54,113 nucleotides of DNA, taken from positions 1 to 54,113 of IMG/VR virus record IMGVR_UViG_3300027797_000037, one strand, 5' to 3'. Below the pieces are notes generated by a model. The model worked only from the letters and a program-made list of their open reading frames with translations, ran no database searches and had not been told where the DNA came from. Each line of letters opens with the position of its first letter. Position 1 is the first letter of the stretch. Below, piece after piece: positions 26,074 to 35,300 of the stretch. Source of the DNA: a virus. Both the position numbers and the translations under genes were made by a program.

Positions 26074-27489
26074 CTACGTGTCTTTTGGTTTAGGAAAGTC
26101 GTTAAATCGTCGAACAGTCATATTTACTGTTGACAGTATCGGTACCATTCGAGAGTTAAAGACAGCGTGGTTTATTGAAAGTTCTTGAATTTGAACTTTG
26201 TATCGCATACCTGCACCAAGGTGTAGTTCTACAACGGTTGGACGGATCCAACCTCTATCCGCTGTCATTCCGTTTATATTAGACCTAAAATCACCGTTTG
26301 GACCCATAATTGTGCGAAACAGATATTCAAGGTCGTACATAGTTCCACGTTCGTAAATCATTTTTCGGTCTTCTTCACTTACGGGCGTTGGATATGCGCC
26401 TAAAACTGTATTCATTGGATTTGGGTTATTTAGTGTGTCTGTTAATTTTTTATCACCTGGACTTGTGTATTTTCCATTTTCATCTATATTGTTAAAATCT
26501 TCAATACGATTTAACATAAGACTAAACGAAACGGTACTAGCCATAAGACCGACAGACATTGGAAAAGACTTATCGGCTCCACTTGCCTCAAAAGAAGGAA
26601 CGGTTTGGCTCACTTGGCCCCAGGCTAAACCTACAGAGGTTGGGTTGTACAAAAATCTAAATCCATATAAGTTATTGTCAAATTTCCTATACGTTTTATC
26701 TTTTGCTTTTTTCGCAGCCGCTGCTCTGTCGGATTCTGCAATTTTAGTTGGAGCCATCATCTGGGCAAATTCGTAATTCATTTGAATAGTTCCAATGCCT
26801 CCAACCACACCTTTCCAAGCATTGTTTGCATCTGTAAATTTAAAACGATCCATAGTTGTTCCAGATTGTAACTTATCCTGAATACCACTAAAAGAAAAGT
26901 ATGCTTCTTTTACCATAGGGGCGTTGTACTTATATTTGCCTACTGTCATCTGTACTGGTGGGGCCACTTCTTCTGTGCCGTCTTCCGTACCTTTAGGAGG
27001 TACATAAGGTGTGGTGTCATTTTTGTCGTCAGGTTTTGTAACTACTGGCGGACCGCTCCAAGAAGAGCCGTGTCCTGATGGCAATCGAAGTTTTGCCTTT
27101 TCTTGACTTCTTTTGATTTCAGCGGCTTTCTTTAATTCTTGTGTCTTTTTAAGGCTTGCAATAGCAGAATCTAAAATTTTTTGTTGGGCATTAACAGCGC
27201 GTACTCGCCTGTCAAACTCAACACCCTCTTCATATGACCGTGGAATTGGATGATCGGAGTTGTACGAAGTTACCATAAATTTAAGTGCTGTTAACGTGTT
27301 TGTTTCAGCAGTAATTAGACCAGTGAGAGATTCAACTTTTTTCTGATATACAAAAATTTCAGTGTCAAGTTTTTTAATTCTTTCATTAGTCTTTTTTCTT
27401 TCAACCTCGCGGTCGTGTTGTGTTTGAGCCTTAGTGTCATTTTTGTCCGCTGTTACTGCGTCATCGTAGGCATCAGCCTGTGTTGCCAT
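26074..27489 (-). CDS. CIS-tube-like tail tube/hub adaptor protein
   Basis: Residues 1-140 of 471 are highly charged and coiled-coil forming. A Pro-rich linker follows (about 145-185). The C-terminal half contains NNLYGFRFLYNPTSVGLAWGQVS and ends in an RYKVQIQELSINHAVFNSRMVPIL segment. This resembles the CIS-tube domain that caps the tail tube next to LysM proteins. It lies between the tape measure and the LysM protein, as expected. The family name is inferred from motif and position. Confidence 0.72.
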   Translation of the reverse strand: MATQADAYDDAVTADKNDTKAQTQHDREVERKKTNERIKKLDTEIFVYQKKVESLTGLITAETNTLTALKFMVTSYNSDHPIPRSYEEGVEFDRRVRAVNAQQKILDSAIASLKKTQELKKAAEIKRSQEKAKLRLPSGHGSSWSGPPVVTKPDDKNDTTPYVPPKGTEDGTEEVAPPVQMTVGKYKYNAPMVKEAYFSFSGIQDKLQSGTTMDRFKFTDANNAWKGVVGGIGTIQMNYEFAQMMAPTKIAESDRAAAAKKAKDKTYRKFDNNLYGFRFLYNPTSVGLAWGQVSQTVPSFEASGADKSFPMSVGLMASTVSFSLMLNRIEDFNNIDENGKYTSPGDKKLTDTLNNPNPMNTVLGAYPTPVSEEDRKMIYERGTMYDLEYLFRTIMGPNGDFRSNINGMTADRGWIRPTVVELHLGAGMRYKVQIQELSINHAVFNSRMVPILSTVNMTVRRFNDFPKPKDT

Positions 27490-30035
27490 TATCTACTTCC
27501 CATCGCTGAAATTGTCGAATCGTTGTGCAGGTACTCTTTTACTTTTTTAGCAAAACGAGCCGCTTCTTCATCTGAAGCCTTGTCAATTTTAAGGGTAATA
27601 TTAATAGTTGTATTGCCTTGTGGCCCTACCGCTGCGGCTGCAATTGAAGCGCCAAACCCAGATGAACCTCCACCGCCAGGTATTTCTAGCGCACCTAAAC
27701 CTCGATTAAATCTTTTAGTAGCGGCCTCATCAGATTGATCTTTTGGTCGCTCAAAGATTCTCATAAACGCCGCTGTTGCGTCGTACCTGCTTGCCTCTGG
27801 GTTTGTTAAAATCCCCATTAAATCTTTGTAACCTTTGTGGTTTAACTCTTTCATTAAGAACATTTTTTGTGCTTCTAAGGTTGATGGATCTAACCCTTGT
27901 TCTGCAGAAAACTTTTTTAAGTTATCCCAACGACCTTTGTGCCATTGAGCAATTCCATAGGAAGTGCCTTTGTCACCAAGTGCATTAGTACGCATATTAG
28001 ACTCGGCCATAAGGTTTGCTACAACGCCAAAAGCACCATTAGGACTTAAACCTTGTGTAACAAGCCAATCCCGCATTTCTTTTGCAACTTCGTGAGGCTT
28101 TCCTGTAGGGGATCCAGTTGGAGATGTAGAACTTTGACTATCGTTAGAATCATACCAAGCAAATGCTTGGTTCAAAGAAAGAAGTCCTTGAGTTCCTAGA
28201 CTTGCCATTGTGGTAGACAATTTTGCTGGAGAGTTTGAACGAGCAGCGCCGCTTAACTCGCTAGGGTTAACAGGGTTGTTCTTTCCTCTACGCACTTCGT
28301 AGTGAAGGTGAGGGCCTGTAGTGTTACCAGATTTTCCAGATTTACCAATTATTTGTCCAGCAGAAACGCTTGCGCCAAGTTGTACATCGCGGGAACTTAA
28401 GTGTCCGTACAATGTTTGGTAACCATTTGCGTGATCAATAACTACGGCTGTTCCGTAGTCTGCGCCAGGGCTGATACTGGAAACAACACCGTCCATATAA
28501 CTCTTTACTGGAGTTCCAACTGGTACTGCATAATCAACACCTGTGTGAGTGCCGTTAGTAGAGGACCAAATTCCGCTGTTATTTTTTTCTCCAAAGCCTG
28601 CACTTATTGCGCCATTAACAGGTGCGCCTCCGCCAATTGCAGCACCGTAACCAGAGGATGCTCCACCAAGACCGCGAGCACCGTAACCTGAAGAACCTCC
28701 ACCAGGCACCAGAAGTGATGCAGCCGTCATAAAGTCTGCAGCAGCGGCGGCAAAGATAGGCGCTGCATCCATAATTCCCCTACCAATGTTTGACCCGTAG
28801 TAACCGTCTGCATAACCCTTCAATCGCCCTAATGCTGGAGCAGTCAGTTCAAGTGCTTCGTTTAAAATATTAATTTGTACGGCGGCGTCGTGGAACCCCG
28901 CAACCATCGACCCAGTTGCTGCTTGCATTAGTTCAGTTTCAGACTCATTCATTATTCCAACTGCGTCAAGTGATGTATTTTTGTTATCTCCTACTGACTC
29001 TGCTTTAGCAAGATCTGGATCTCTTCCACCTGCAATATCAATAAACATCTGTGAAAAGATTGCTTGTTGCGCATCAGTAAATCCCATAGTTTTTAAGTTG
29101 GCACCTGCGTTACCCATAAGGAGTGCGTTTTGTACATCTTTTTCAGTAGCGCCCTTTTGAAACATTTGGTTAAAAAGTTCTTTAGCAATTTGTCCTGTTG
29201 ACTTTTGTTCTCCTGAAGCAGCGTCGTAAGTGTCAATGCCATATTGATAGAGGTTAGCCCCGCTTTGTCCAGAGTGAAGTCCAGCAATTGCTTGTGCTGC
29301 TGGAGCGTTTTCCATTCCTAAATACCTAAACGCTCCACCAACTTCAGAGGCTGCTTGTTTAAAACTTGCACTTCCTGGAATATAACCAGCACTTGCAAGA
29401 AGCGGTGCAACCATTCCATCTGCACCAACGCTTGAAAGTCCTCCATGACCCATTGCCTTTAAAGTAGATCGTTGCAGATCTCCTCTACTAATACCAGGTG
29501 CACGAAGGGCTGCTTGGTAGTAACCGATGTCTCTTTGTATAGTGAGCGCAGTATCAGGCATTTGCCCCATTGATTGTACGGCCAGTGCAGCGGCTGTCTT
29601 TATTGCACCAAGTCCTCCGCGATACGCAGCCTCAAGGGGAGAAATACCCAACGAAATTCCCGCAAACTCCACGTTTTGACCACCGCCACCTTGTGGGCTG
29701 ACGGTGCTCAGTGCTTGAGCGTGTGCAACGCGTCGTTCTGATCCTTGGTGCTGTCCAGAAAAATCTGCCATAGAGTTTTCTAAGAAGTTTTGTCCATTGG
29801 ATCCTTGGGCAACAGGGTACGAGAAACCTGCCATTGATGGCATCTGGGAGTTTCCACTATTACCGAGCCCGTACTGACCACCCATTGATTGGATGGAACC
29901 ACGGACATCGGTAATAGCAGATGCTGCAACACCTTTTACACGTGCAACAGCCTCATAGAGTTCATTAACTTTTTTAGTTAAGGTGTCAACGCCGTCGGTC
30001 AGGCCTTGAAGGTTATTAACCATCTCGTTAGCCAT
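27489..30035 (-). CDS. Tape measure protein with M23 peptidase and tail lysozyme domains
   Basis: The 848-residue protein has an N-terminal coiled region (about 1-50) and a Gly/Ala-rich helical part to about 450. Residues 470-600 are an M23 endopeptidase with H497, D501, H576 and H578 in HTGVDY and GPHLHYE. Residues 648-785 fit the phage tail lysozyme family, with probable catalytic E678 in LMAESN. It sets tail length and likely cleaves both peptide and glycan bonds during entry. It follows the chaperone genes. Confidence 0.92.
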   Translation of the reverse strand: MANEMVNNLQGLTDGVDTLTKKVNELYEAVARVKGVAASAITDVRGSIQSMGGQYGLGNSGNSQMPSMAGFSYPVAQGSNGQNFLENSMADFSGQHQGSERRVAHAQALSTVSPQGGGGQNVEFAGISLGISPLEAAYRGGLGAIKTAAALAVQSMGQMPDTALTIQRDIGYYQAALRAPGISRGDLQRSTLKAMGHGGLSSVGADGMVAPLLASAGYIPGSASFKQAASEVGGAFRYLGMENAPAAQAIAGLHSGQSGANLYQYGIDTYDAASGEQKSTGQIAKELFNQMFQKGATEKDVQNALLMGNAGANLKTMGFTDAQQAIFSQMFIDIAGGRDPDLAKAESVGDNKNTSLDAVGIMNESETELMQAATGSMVAGFHDAAVQINILNEALELTAPALGRLKGYADGYYGSNIGRGIMDAAPIFAAAAADFMTAASLLVPGGGSSGYGARGLGGASSGYGAAIGGGAPVNGAISAGFGEKNNSGIWSSTNGTHTGVDYAVPVGTPVKSYMDGVVSSISPGADYGTAVVIDHANGYQTLYGHLSSRDVQLGASVSAGQIIGKSGKSGNTTGPHLHYEVRRGKNNPVNPSELSGAARSNSPAKLSTTMASLGTQGLLSLNQAFAWYDSNDSQSSTSPTGSPTGKPHEVAKEMRDWLVTQGLSPNGAFGVVANLMAESNMRTNALGDKGTSYGIAQWHKGRWDNLKKFSAEQGLDPSTLEAQKMFLMKELNHKGYKDLMGILTNPEASRYDATAAFMRIFERPKDQSDEAATKRFNRGLGALEIPGGGGSSGFGASIAAAAVGPQGNTTINITLKIDKASDEEAARFAKKVKEYLHNDSTISAMGSR

Positions 30036-30036
30036 G

Positions 30037-31000
30037 CTAGTCCCTTCTAGACGTTACCCTGGCTATTTCTATCCAGTTTTTTCTTTCTCTTGGAGATAAC
30101 TTTTGTATCTCTGATAATGTCCACCCTTTAAACGAATGAGTCAAGGTTGACCACTCTCTTATAAGGAGGTTGTACGAGTTAAAGTTAAAAGCGAAACAAG
30201 TTGCCAAAATTAATTGGAACCCGTACCTCGCTCTCACAATCGGGGCAAGTAACCGAAACATCTTCTAACTTTGGCCCTGGAACACGTTTCATAATTTCGG
30301 CGCTTACTAAGCGGCGATCTGCAAGGCTCAATTTTTGAACCTGTAGTTTGCTAACTACTGGCATGTCGTTAATCTCTAAAATAGTCTTTTCAAGAAGAAC
30401 GGTACTAAGTTCTGCTGGTGTTTTGTCCGCATTGTTAATGAGTTCTCTTTGTGCTACTCCTGTAGGAAGTTGAACTTTAATTACTGTGTTCTTTCCTTCT
30501 ACCATAAAAATAGTTTCATTAATTGGATCTGTTAACACCTTGCTTTTGATGTCGGTGTTTAGATCAACACTTACTTCTTTAACAACAGAACACCCTGTGC
30601 AATACGCGGGGATTGTAGTTGTTGAACCAAATGTGGCTTTAATGATCCCAATGACAAGAGCGTCTCTGTCTCCTGCCAACATGCTGTCTAAGAGTTCTTC
30701 TGTAGCCTTTTCACGACCAACACTTACAGTGCCGCGATTGAGGACGGTAAGCATTGCTTTTCCAATTGTAGTTGCTTTAGAAATTGCTTCTTCATCAGAG
30801 CCGTTTAATTCTCTAACCTCTGCCTCCGTGATGACCTCCCCAGCGTCATTAATGTAGCCGCCAGGGAGGATCACCAAGGTGTCTGAAGGAGAAGTAATTT
30901 TTACGTCACCATCTATAGACTTAGGTTGTTCTTGAAGAGCCTGTTGAATCAGGTTGTTTGCCAATGCGGGGTTATTCGCTGAACTAATTGTATTCGTCAT
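30037..31000 (-). CDS. Tail assembly chaperone, long form (programmed +1 frameshift)
   Basis: The short chaperone frame ends at TTT TAA (30190-30185). In the +1 frame the next codon AAC opens 49 further residues to the stop at 30037. These include WTLSEIQKLSPRERKNWIEIARV, a motif typical of the T part of tail chaperone G/GT pairs just before the tape measure. Phe-tRNA can re-pair perfectly after slipping from TTT to TTT, with a stop codon waiting in the A site, as in prfB. The long product would be about 320 residues. A separate start at ATG 30261 is less likely, having no good ribosome-binding site. Confidence 0.65.
30184..30190 (-). other. Putative +1 frameshift site TTT_TAA_C
   Basis: On the minus strand the bases read TTTTAAC. 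The P-site codon TTT can slip by one base onto TTT, and the A-site is a TAA stop, which slows decoding. This is the same logic as the CTT TGA C site of release factor 2 genes. There is no obvious strong Shine-Dalgarno stimulator directly upstream. Slippage would join the frame ending at 30185 to the frame ending at 30037. Confidence 0.6.
30185..31000 (-). CDS. Tail assembly chaperone, short form (gp26-like)
   Basis: A 271-residue protein with a disordered N-terminus and a beta-rich domain. Two CxxC pairs are present: CTGC (about residue 135) and CPDC near the C-terminus (about 255), which can form a zinc ribbon. The helical segment AQRELINNADKTPAEL and the KRVPGPKLEDVSVTCPDC region fit T4 gp26-like hub assembly proteins. 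It lies between the tube gene and tape measure, the usual chaperone position. Confidence 0.78.
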   Translation of the reverse strand: MTNTISSANNPALANNLIQQALQEQPKSIDGDVKITSPSDTLVILPGGYINDAGEVITEAEVRELNGSDEEAISKATTIGKAMLTVLNRGTVSVGREKATEELLDSMLAGDRDALVIGIIKATFGSTTTIPAYCTGCSVVKEVSVDLNTDIKSKVLTDPINETIFMVEGKNTVIKVQLPTGVAQRELINNADKTPAELSTVLLEKTILEINDMPVVSKLQVQKLSLADRRLVSAEIMKRVPGPKLEDVSVTCPDCESEVRVPINFGNLFRF

Positions 31001-31012
31001 TTTATTCCTTTT

Positions 31013-31672
31013 TTAGGTTGCAGGGATTGCTGTGGCGTCTGTGCCAATGGTTGTTCCAATTGAGATGTCAAATCCTTCATGAATTAGAGTCATCTGCTCA
31101 ACAAGAAGAGCGTTATCTCCAGCATTTAGATCTGAGTAAGCAATTGCAGTTGGCCATGCGTTGTAAACTTTAAAACGCATTCCAACAGTATCAGTAGAGT
31201 TGTTTGTCTTTGTAACATCTTTTCCTGCAGTGTCTTTAACGGTAGTTGCCGTACCGTCTTCTTCACCTGCAGCAGGGGTTGGGTGTGCCAGTACTTGGAT
31301 GTCAAGATCGCAACGGAAGTTTTGTCCAACAGTACGGAGAGTTCCTCCAGCGTTCATTGTTGAGAAGATGTTACGCATCCACTTCCAGTGACGATCAGCG
31401 TTTGCACCAAGCATTACACCACGTTGTAGTGTAATTGGGGTAAACGTTGACTGACCAGGAATCTGGTGTACGGTTGTGTTATATCCACCTTCACGGTAAG
31501 GAATAGAGTCTGTAGCAATAGAAAGACCTGATACAGATGTAAACCCAAACTTTACAGACTTGAGGGCTGCAATAGTACTGTTAGTAGAGTCTTGCGGATT
31601 AAACGTAACCAAGAATCGGAAGTTACGTAGAGGATCTGTTTCCATAGATCCTCTGTTATTGATAAAAGCCAT
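31013..31672 (-). CDS. Tail tube protein (gp19-like)
   Basis: The 219-residue protein starts with DPLRNFRFLVTF and has a FTSVSGLSIATDSIPYREGG motif and an ITLQRGVMLGANADRHWKWM segment. These are diagnostic of gp19/FII-type tubes. The GVM...W pair is highly conserved in T4-like tubes. It polymerises into the inner tube through which DNA passes. It follows the sheath gene, as in nearly all myoviruses. Confidence 0.95.
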   Translation of the reverse strand: MAFINNRGSMETDPLRNFRFLVTFNPQDSTNSTIAALKSVKFGFTSVSGLSIATDSIPYREGGYNTTVHQIPGQSTFTPITLQRGVMLGANADRHWKWMRNIFSTMNAGGTLRTVGQNFRCDLDIQVLAHPTPAAGEEDGTATTVKDTAGKDVTKTNNSTDTVGMRFKVYNAWPTAIAYSDLNAGDNALLVEQMTLIHEGFDISIGTTIGTDATAIPAT

Positions 31673-34499: not shown

Positions 34500-34655
34500 C
34501 TACATGCCCCTTTTTTGCTTCATACCCATCTTAGGAACTTTACCCTTTTTAAGTGCTTTAAAGTCAGCGCCAGTGATTTTGGTTGTAGGTTTTGCAGCCC
34601 CAGCAATCTTTATCTGCTTAGGGGTTAATGGTTTAGGTTTTGATGACTTGGCCAT
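34500..34655 (-). CDS. Small basic protein (51 aa)
   Basis: The ATG at 34655 shares a base with the preceding stop (TAATG). The 51-residue product is about one quarter Lys, with Pro-Lys repeats and a Met/Gly-rich tail. It is likely disordered and could bind nucleic acid. It is the last gene of a five-gene run of tiny basic proteins before the terminator at 34463. Confidence 0.65.
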   Translation of the reverse strand: MAKSSKPKPLTPKQIKIAGAAKPTTKITGADFKALKKGKVPKMGMKQKRGM

Positions 34656-34777
34656 TACTTCTTGTCCTTCTTTTTAGTTGGTTTACTTTTGGTTTTTGCA
34701 AACTTCTTATTAGCAGAAGCAAGGGTCTTCATCCCATGTTTATCTTTAGGCTTCATGCAGCCACAGGTGGCACACAT
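34655..34777 (-). CDS. Small Cys/Lys-rich protein (40 aa)
   Basis: Forty residues beginning MCATCGCMKPKDKHGMK, with Cys at 2, 5 and 7, and ending in a lysine-rich tail. Both ends use TAATG overlaps with neighbours, so translation is reinitiated along the chain. Its N-terminus is clearly related to the next small gene. It may bind metal and nucleic acid. Confidence 0.68.
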   Translation of the reverse strand: MCATCGCMKPKDKHGMKTLASANKKFAKTKSKPTKKKDKK

Positions 34778-34896
34778 TACTTCTTCTTTCCCTTACAGGC
34801 CTTGCAAGTACCGCAAGTACAAGCCTTCTTTGACTTTGGGCCCTTGCCAAAACCTGGCTCGCCCTTTTTCTTACCACATCCACATGCTGCACACAT
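34777..34896 (-). CDS. Small Cys-rich protein (39 aa)
   Basis: Thirty-nine residues starting MCAACGCGKKKG and containing a second cluster ACTCGTCKAC. Seven Cys in total could bind one or two zinc ions. Lysine is abundant. The start of the downstream paralogue overlaps its stop (TAATG). Small Cys-rich proteins with MCxxCGCG starts occur in many phage genomes near head genes; function is unknown. Confidence 0.7.
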   Translation of the reverse strand: MCAACGCGKKKGEPGFGKGPKSKKACTCGTCKACKGKKK

Positions 34897-35037
34897 CTAC
34901 TTGCTCACTTTCTTCTTAGGTTTGGATTTTGCAACTCCTTTTGCAGGGACACAATTTGGAACTTTCTTGCCATTCTTCATCTTCATGCCTACCTGAGTGT
35001 AGCCATCCCAACATGGATCTGTCTTCTTAGTTGCCAT
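34897..35037 (-). CDS. Small phage protein with GMKxKNGKKVPNCVP motif (46 aa)
   Basis: The 46-residue product contains DPCWDGYTQVGMKMKNGKKV followed by PNCVP. This pattern is widespread as a short element in marine and cyanophage structural proteins. Two Cys flank the core. The C-terminus is lysine-rich. It ends 1 bp before the Cys-rich gene start and begins where the DUF6321-like gene ends. Confidence 0.75.
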   Translation of the reverse strand: MATKKTDPCWDGYTQVGMKMKNGKKVPNCVPAKGVAKSKPKKKVSK

Positions 35038-35300
35038 TAGCAATCCCATTTTCTACGTGCTTTGTTTAGTCTACTGTTTGGATCTTTTGCTGCTTTTGGA
35101 AAATCTTTTGCCTGTCCAGCAGAACGTGCACAGTAACTCTTGCGACGTGCTGCAGACTTGGGAGACTTCTTTGCCTGCTCTTTGCTTACAGGAGGCTTAA
35201 GGTTATGGCCTTCTTTTTTAGCAGAAGCGCGACCTTTGGCGTTCAGCCCACCTTCTTTGTTCTGTCCCTCTTTGCGTTGCCACGCCGCTGTCTTAGCCAT
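35037..35300 (-). CDS. DUF6321-like basic phage protein
   Basis: The 87-residue protein begins AKTAAWQRKEGQNKEGGLNAKGRAS, followed by NLKPPV and RRKSYCARSAG, and ends in KDPNSRLNKARRKWDC. The GGLNAKGR...LKPPV pattern matches the DUF6321 family of small basic phage proteins, common in aquatic phages. Function is unknown; the strong positive charge suggests contact with DNA or packaged nucleoprotein. The family name is from memory. Confidence 0.78.
   Translation of the reverse strand: MAKTAAWQRKEGQNKEGGLNAKGRASAKKEGHNLKPPVSKEQAKKSPKSAARRKSYCARSAGQAKDFPKAAKDPNSRLNKARRKWDC

Follow-up and report, generated by a model that had tools for sequence, protein, structure and literature searches.

The DNA analyzed here, hereafter called the window, is the IMG/VR virus record IMGVR_UViG_3300027797_000037, which is 54,113 bases long with a G+C content of 42.8%. 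In the region discussed below, the minus strand carries structural genes of a contractile-tailed phage. The tail cluster in this region includes genes for a tail sheath, a gp19-like tail tube, a tail assembly chaperone, a tape measure, more tail proteins and a baseplate wedge protein. The tail tube gene (31672..31013; PF06841, E 2.5e-26; phrog_4542) lies directly upstream of the chaperone gene (31000..30185), which is followed right away by the tape measure gene (30035..27489). A tape measure directly after the chaperone is the typical position of a G/GT-type gene. The tape measure protein contains two enzyme domains, an M23 peptidase (496-591) and a phage lysozyme (650-770). Several small lysine-rich open reading frames, some with CxxC motifs, stand in a row among the structural genes at 34500-35300. 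No tRNA genes that might account for slippage were found in the window. A scan of genome contigs for a link to a host gave one weak match only, without the frame arrangement described below.

By standard decoding, the chaperone gene encodes a protein of 271 aa, the short form of a gp26-type tail assembly chaperone. It matches the profile PF12322 (T4_baseplate) with 36.9 bits, above the curated cut-off of 24.5, and phrog_150 (baseplate hub). The short form and the C-terminal extension described below were modelled by AlphaFold2 as two separate parts. The model of the short form has a pLDDT of 86.5, and a Foldseek search with it matched numerous BFVD models of baseplate hub assembly proteins of the T4-like type, with E values down to 6e-19. 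The highest-probability match in the PDB is the HK97 tail assembly chaperone 2ob9 (probability 0.80), with an E value of 0.53, which is not significant, and a TMt of 0.48. T4 gp26 and T4 gp51 both match PF12322 and belong to the same protein family as the window chaperone. T4 gp51 consists of the PF12322 domain plus a C-terminal extension, which fits the report that gp51 of cyanophages and vibriophages lacks the first ~200 residues (PMC3037559); no solved structure of T4 gp51 was found by sequence. For T4-like phages, a short and a long form of the chaperone have been described, in some cases encoded by separate genes (Vladimirov, Gautam & Davidson 2022, as cited in PMC10274946 and PMC12846349), and gp26 and gp51 as the short and long forms are already published and are not new here.

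The zero frame of the chaperone gene ends ...GGC AAC TTG TTT CGC TTT TAA, with the stop codon at 30187..30185. A preliminary description of this DNA had stated that the first frame stops at TAA after TTT and that the +1 frame continues for 49 residues, and this arrangement was confirmed in the window. The +1 frame is already open long before the zero-frame stop and spans 75 codons from stop to stop. Its product, NFNSYNLLIREWSTLTHSFKGWTLSEIQKLSPRERKNWIEIARVTSRRD, continues for 49 codons past the zero-frame stop and ends at a TAG (30039..30037) just 5' of the tape measure ATG (30035). The -1 frame had been said to close after a few codons, and at the junction in the window it does so after 9; it is usually short in the relatives as well. 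These relatives comprise 75 sequences from viral contigs (IMG/VR) and six phage-collection records, which represent five Streptomyces phages of the BRock/GiJojo group, with BRock present twice. After deduplication, the window family contained 45 sequences for counts at the slip site and 44 for analyses of selection and start codons. The +1 frame continues straight past the stop in 75/75 contig relatives and 5/5 Streptomyces phages, which excludes a sequencing error. The continuation is 46-76 codons long, with the exception of locus L022, where it runs for 33 codons to the end of the available sequence. The junction was identical in two further contigs from sister samples.

The extension is conserved and is coding sequence. 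The pattern Y..L..EW..L......GW.L.EI..L..RER.NW is kept among the relatives, with L, W, R.R and NW as invariant columns. Among the 44 deduplicated relatives, the +1 frame of the extension has a pN/pS of 0.39, a median dN/dS of 0.23 and no stops. The other two frames show pN/pS values of 1.0 and 1.6, median dN/dS values of about 1.0 and 1.9, and thousands of stop cells. These values indicate purifying selection on the extension in the +1 frame, and in that frame only. Counted from the slip site proposed below, the extension comprises 51 codons (30192..30040, stop at 30039-30037). Modelled alone, it forms three helices with a pLDDT of 83.5, and its designation as a T-like C-terminal extension in the preliminary description is upheld; we regard it as a T-like or gp51-like helical domain.

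We examined where the ribosome is likely to change frame. The preliminary description had placed the shift at the stop itself, TTT_TAA_C (30190..30184), by a stop-assisted mechanism like that of prfB. The prfB gene for release factor 2 shifts +1 at CUU_UGA_C and requires an A-site stop codon as well as a Shine-Dalgarno (SD) sequence 3 nt upstream. In the window, the sequence TTTT at the stop does provide perfect re-pairing for tRNA-Phe while a stop codon occupies the A site, as had been pointed out, and TTTT at the stop is common to 7/45 relatives. The same part of the description fails for the other relatives. The final sense codon is TTC in 27, TTT in 7, CTC in 5, ATC in 4 and ATA in 2 of the 45 sequences, so that 38 of them have junctions such as TTC_TAG or ATC_TAA that re-pair poorly in the +1 frame, yet the extension is conserved. 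The stop varies as well, with TAG in 23 and TAA in 22 of the 45, and TGA or TAA in the BRock-type phages. There is no SD-like element 3 nt upstream, unlike in prfB. A conserved slippery codon right before the stop with an SD just upstream, the hallmarks of a prfB-type site, are both missing here.

What is invariant lies upstream of the stop. The tetranucleotide TTT_C (30196..30193, in the context TTG_TTT_CGC), two codons ahead of the stop, is present in 45/45 members of the window family. Among the Phe codon columns of the chaperone gene, this one alone is fully invariant and never TTC, whereas the other well-conserved ones have TTC in 19-31%. The codon after TTT is CGN in 39/45 and CAA in 6/45 sequences; in the window the site reads UUU_CGC. 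Arginine codons of the AGR type are never used after TTT, though they account for 28% of Arg codons elsewhere. Since the codon switches between Arg (CGN) and Gln (CAA/CAG) and is never AGR, it is the nucleotide C after TTT that is retained through a change of amino acid. In 10/45 relatives the shift is confined to six codons by a stop in the +1 frame located 11 nt 5' of TTT; among these codons, only TTT_C is both invariant and capable of perfect re-pairing. The BRock-type phages, sampled as 15 further contigs plus isolates and with a protein 37% identical, also have an invariant TTT_C, with the stop one codon further away (TTT CGC GAA CTC TGA), and thus separate the slip site from the stop. 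Since TTT_C stands two codons earlier in the window family and three before the stop in the BRock type, the stop would not be in the A site at the likeliest shift. These comparisons suggest that the slip most likely occurs at UUU_C upstream of the stop and that P-site slippage at UUU_C(GN) accounts for the mechanism better than a stop-assisted shift at TTT_TAA, an in-frame UUU_C(GN) site of this type being conserved across the relatives. A shift at the stop as the main event is therefore improbable, but a second, minor slip there is possible in the window and the six other relatives with TTTT. The TTT_C at 30196..30193 is the sole in-frame TTT_C word in the window gene. Elsewhere in the chaperone genes, an in-frame TTT is followed by C in 9/187 cases versus 18% expected from the frequency of first bases, a difference that comes from few independent columns and perhaps reflects avoidance of spurious slippage. 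A -2 shift was rejected because the -2 codon at TTG_TTT would be UGU, which tRNA-Phe cannot pair with.

The extension could instead be a separate small gene that ribosomes translate after the stop, by re-initiating or through translational coupling, and it is annotated as such in GiJojo, LuckySocke, Alone3 and BRock; nothing is annotated in pSt2308. The extension loci in these Streptomyces phages are L002 3755-3952, L003 3818-3973, L006 3818-3973, L005 3752-3934 and L004. The submitters of these genomes picked downstream starts (TTG or ATG), and in cyanophages and KVP40 an ATG immediately follows the stop. However, the starts chosen in related phages are discordant (LVDAYKW... vs MTIRER...), and conserved residues of the extension precede any start. 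Start codons are scattered in the 44 deduplicated relatives: ATG is absent from the extension in 22 and no ATG, GTG or TTG occurs within the first 25 codons in 16. A separate gene would also leave the invariant TTT_C unexplained. Internal initiation in the +1 frame upstream of the slip is likewise excluded for at least 24 relatives, where +1-frame stops lie 11 or 29 nt 5' of it. No homologues consisting of two separate genes with good start sites were found among the relatives. By these comparisons the extension is coding sequence without conserved initiation rather than a separate gene, and we consider re-initiation even less probable than a shift at the stop. Transcriptional slippage could in principle give the same protein outcome, but the site has no homopolymer of more than 4 and TTT_C is not a run, and an assembly error is contradicted by the repetition of the arrangement in about 80 records; neither merits serious weight. 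The overlap expected of a G/GT chaperone gene was found by sequence comparison, namely an open +1 frame, no conserved start and purifying selection. Together with the gene family and position, the conserved and selected extension supports the programmed +1 frameshift in the tail chaperone that had first been suggested from the window alone.

RNA elements around the slip site were examined by RNAalifold. No downstream stimulatory structure was found, and a hairpin was predicted upstream. This putative stimulatory hairpin (30219..30202) lies directly 5' of the slip, pairs positions -23..-18 with -11..-6 and has the loop UUAAUU. An SD-like GAGGU (30229..30225) stands upstream of it and may instead pair with the slip region. 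Although the relatedness of the sequences weakens all counts for these two elements, the hairpin with its outer stem is paired in 94.2% of cells versus 88.9% in shuffles, and its covariation of 0.297 exceeds both that of the shuffles (0.203; 0/500) and the values obtained on sliding the structure, which reach no more than 0.096. The pair -19/-10, both at third codon positions, is seen as GC, UA, AU and CG, and most of the C-C exceptions there form a shifted yet intact stem. Against synonymous recoding the hairpin has mean z values of -1.46 and -1.65, compared to -0.26 (sd 0.41) for control segments; this signal is partly explained by conserved Pro and Gly codons. BRock-type phages and those of the L085 type have different hairpins in the same location. 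The outer stem, in which GAGGUR would pair with the slip region, is 98% paired with no two-sided change and was set aside as mostly conservation. The Glu codon within GAGGU is GAG in 91% of sequences, as compared to 9-48% in most other Glu columns and 97% in one other, and the Val codon that follows is always GTR. These observations support selection at the RNA level on the hairpin and GAGGU, with a putative role as stimulators. With the hairpin folded, the distance between GAGGU and the slip codon would shrink to about 10 nt; across three families it would be 10-13 nt.

Distant relatives with PF12322 also have out-of-frame extensions, either +1 or -1. UUU_Y sites for +1 are found in GXN1 (TTT_CGT), SP-15 (TTT_CAC), LR756508 (TTT_CTA) and contigs L108-L121 (TTT_TGG), and also in Mel-JY01 and LIS04. 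The +1 extensions after gp26-type genes are unannotated or misannotated in Streptococcus phage GXN1 (L086 3700-4010), Bacillus phage SP-15 (L087 3525-3765), Listeria phage LIS04 (L140 2190-2450) and a 484-kb uncultured phage (L085 3650-3945). Candidate -1 sites of the form U_UUU_UUY occur in KVP40, P-SSM2, Bellamy, Atu_ph07, PA5oct, SCTP-2 and cyanophage-like contigs. The gp26 genes of cyanophages and vibriophages end with U_UUU_UUC or U_UUU_UUU, after which the -1 frame is the annotated gp51 (L145, L146, L147, L128-L137, L148-L227). The heptamer U_UUU_UUY is kept in 35/35 deduplicated P-SSM2-like contigs, where a start codon right after the stop is present too; in contigs L128-L137 there is no start codon ahead of the conserved -1 residues. 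On this comparison, the gene family appears to shift +1 at UUU_Y in some phages, while for others a -1 shift at U_UUU_UUY is probable. The direction of the shift was reported to be conserved among orthologues in one survey (PMC3711429), to which gp26-type chaperones look like an exception. In profile comparisons of the extension, the window matches BRock with a probability of 98%, BRock matches cyanophage gp51 with 53% and cyanophage gp51 matches T4 gp51 with 61%. Compared directly, the window extension and T4 gp51 match weakly, at 1% (8% for the whole chain, though collinear), and the link between the two is made through PF12322 and the intermediate families. The phrog_150 alignment of the fusion reaches into the extension (residues 79-307).

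The arrangement has parallels in several known systems. T4 has two genes for the two forms, whereas the window has one gene with a +1 frameshift. Lambda gpG/gpGT and other tail assembly chaperones are products of programmed frameshifting (Xu, Hendrix & Duda 2004, as cited in PMC5009743). The shift in lambda-type G/GT chaperones is usually -1 (-2 in Mu), in contrast to the +1 of the window gene, and the G part in the window is of the gp26/PF12322 family with two CxxC motifs, unlike lambda-type G. For the tail assembly chaperone of the haloarchaeal myoviruses HF1, HF2 and HSTV-2, a TTT-CGC motif was proposed in six genomes in which a +1 shift is needed (PMC7230728). We checked the HF2 sequence, which reads AAG TTT CGC AGA TAG with the +1 frame open. 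The HF1 group has TTT-CGC near the stop and the same gene position as the window, but these are archaeal viruses and their first protein of 156 aa has no CxxC motifs and no evident similarity to the window protein. Slippage at UUU_C with CGN in the A site is backed by peptide and mutation data for influenza A PA-X (PMC3498833), and UUU_CGN +1 shifting was inferred for plant amalgaviruses (PMC5052127). The movement of P-site tRNA-Phe from UUU to UUC at UUU_CGN in these viruses is the one proposed for the window. They use eukaryotic ribosomes, however, and in the window family the A-site codon can also be CAA/CAG and a hairpin may lie 5' of the slip. The prfB gene shares with the window a +1 shift in bacteria, but its A-site stop and SD are absent at the conserved window site.

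We propose that most ribosomes would stop at TAA and produce the 271-aa short form, which is G-like and resembles T4 gp26. A minority would pause when UUU occupies the P site and the A-site codon is CGN or CAR; tRNA-Phe could then move from UUU to UUC with perfect re-pairing and shift the frame by +1. In Streptomyces CGC is not among the rare codons, which makes a pause at a hungry codon doubtful. The shift would yield a 320-aa long form, GT-like and equivalent to T4 gp51, with a three-helix C-terminal domain. By analogy to lambda gpGT, the long form would be expected to serve as a bridge between the tape measure and the tail tube in tail assembly, and the 5' hairpin with the GAGGU before it may stimulate the shift. 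Comparative analysis establishes the +1 coding extension, the lack of conserved initiation, the conserved UUU_C, the gene family and the position; from there we infer the tRNA movement at UUU, the efficiency of the shift, the role of the hairpin and the function of the long form. We assign a probability of about 0.85 to the reading that one gene encodes the short and long gp26-type chaperone forms through a +1 slip at UUU_C. A broader proposal is more tentative, and we hold it to be possible but short of probable: gp26-type chaperones may represent an unrecognized class of bacterial +1 signal (UUU_Y, 5' hairpin and GAGGU), with the direction switched between +1 UUU_Y and -1 U_UUU_UUY at the same Phe codons of a single orthologous gene that continues to give both forms.

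Most known bacterial +1 cases rely on stop codons or CCC. There is no agreed general motif for bacterial +1 frameshifting (PMC10274946), and the UUU_C signal is best known from influenza virus and has been proposed only once for tailed viruses. The site described here is conserved in some 60 distinct genes of aquatic and Streptomyces phages, and related UUU_Y sites are present in phages with Bacillus, Listeria, Streptococcus or Microcystis as the recorded source. Together they form a clean natural collection on which UUU_Y slippage by bacterial ribosomes could be measured. A motif of eukaryotic viruses would also fit a bacterial setting. The analysis pinpoints wrongly split or missing genes in the published phages GiJojo, LuckySocke, Alone3, BRock, pSt2308, SP-15, LIS04 and GXN1. 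It also adds lineages for contrast, with two genes in T4 versus relatives that probably frameshift. The interest of the system would rise further if the 5' hairpin and GAGGU stimulator and the switch between +1 and -1 in one gene family proved true.
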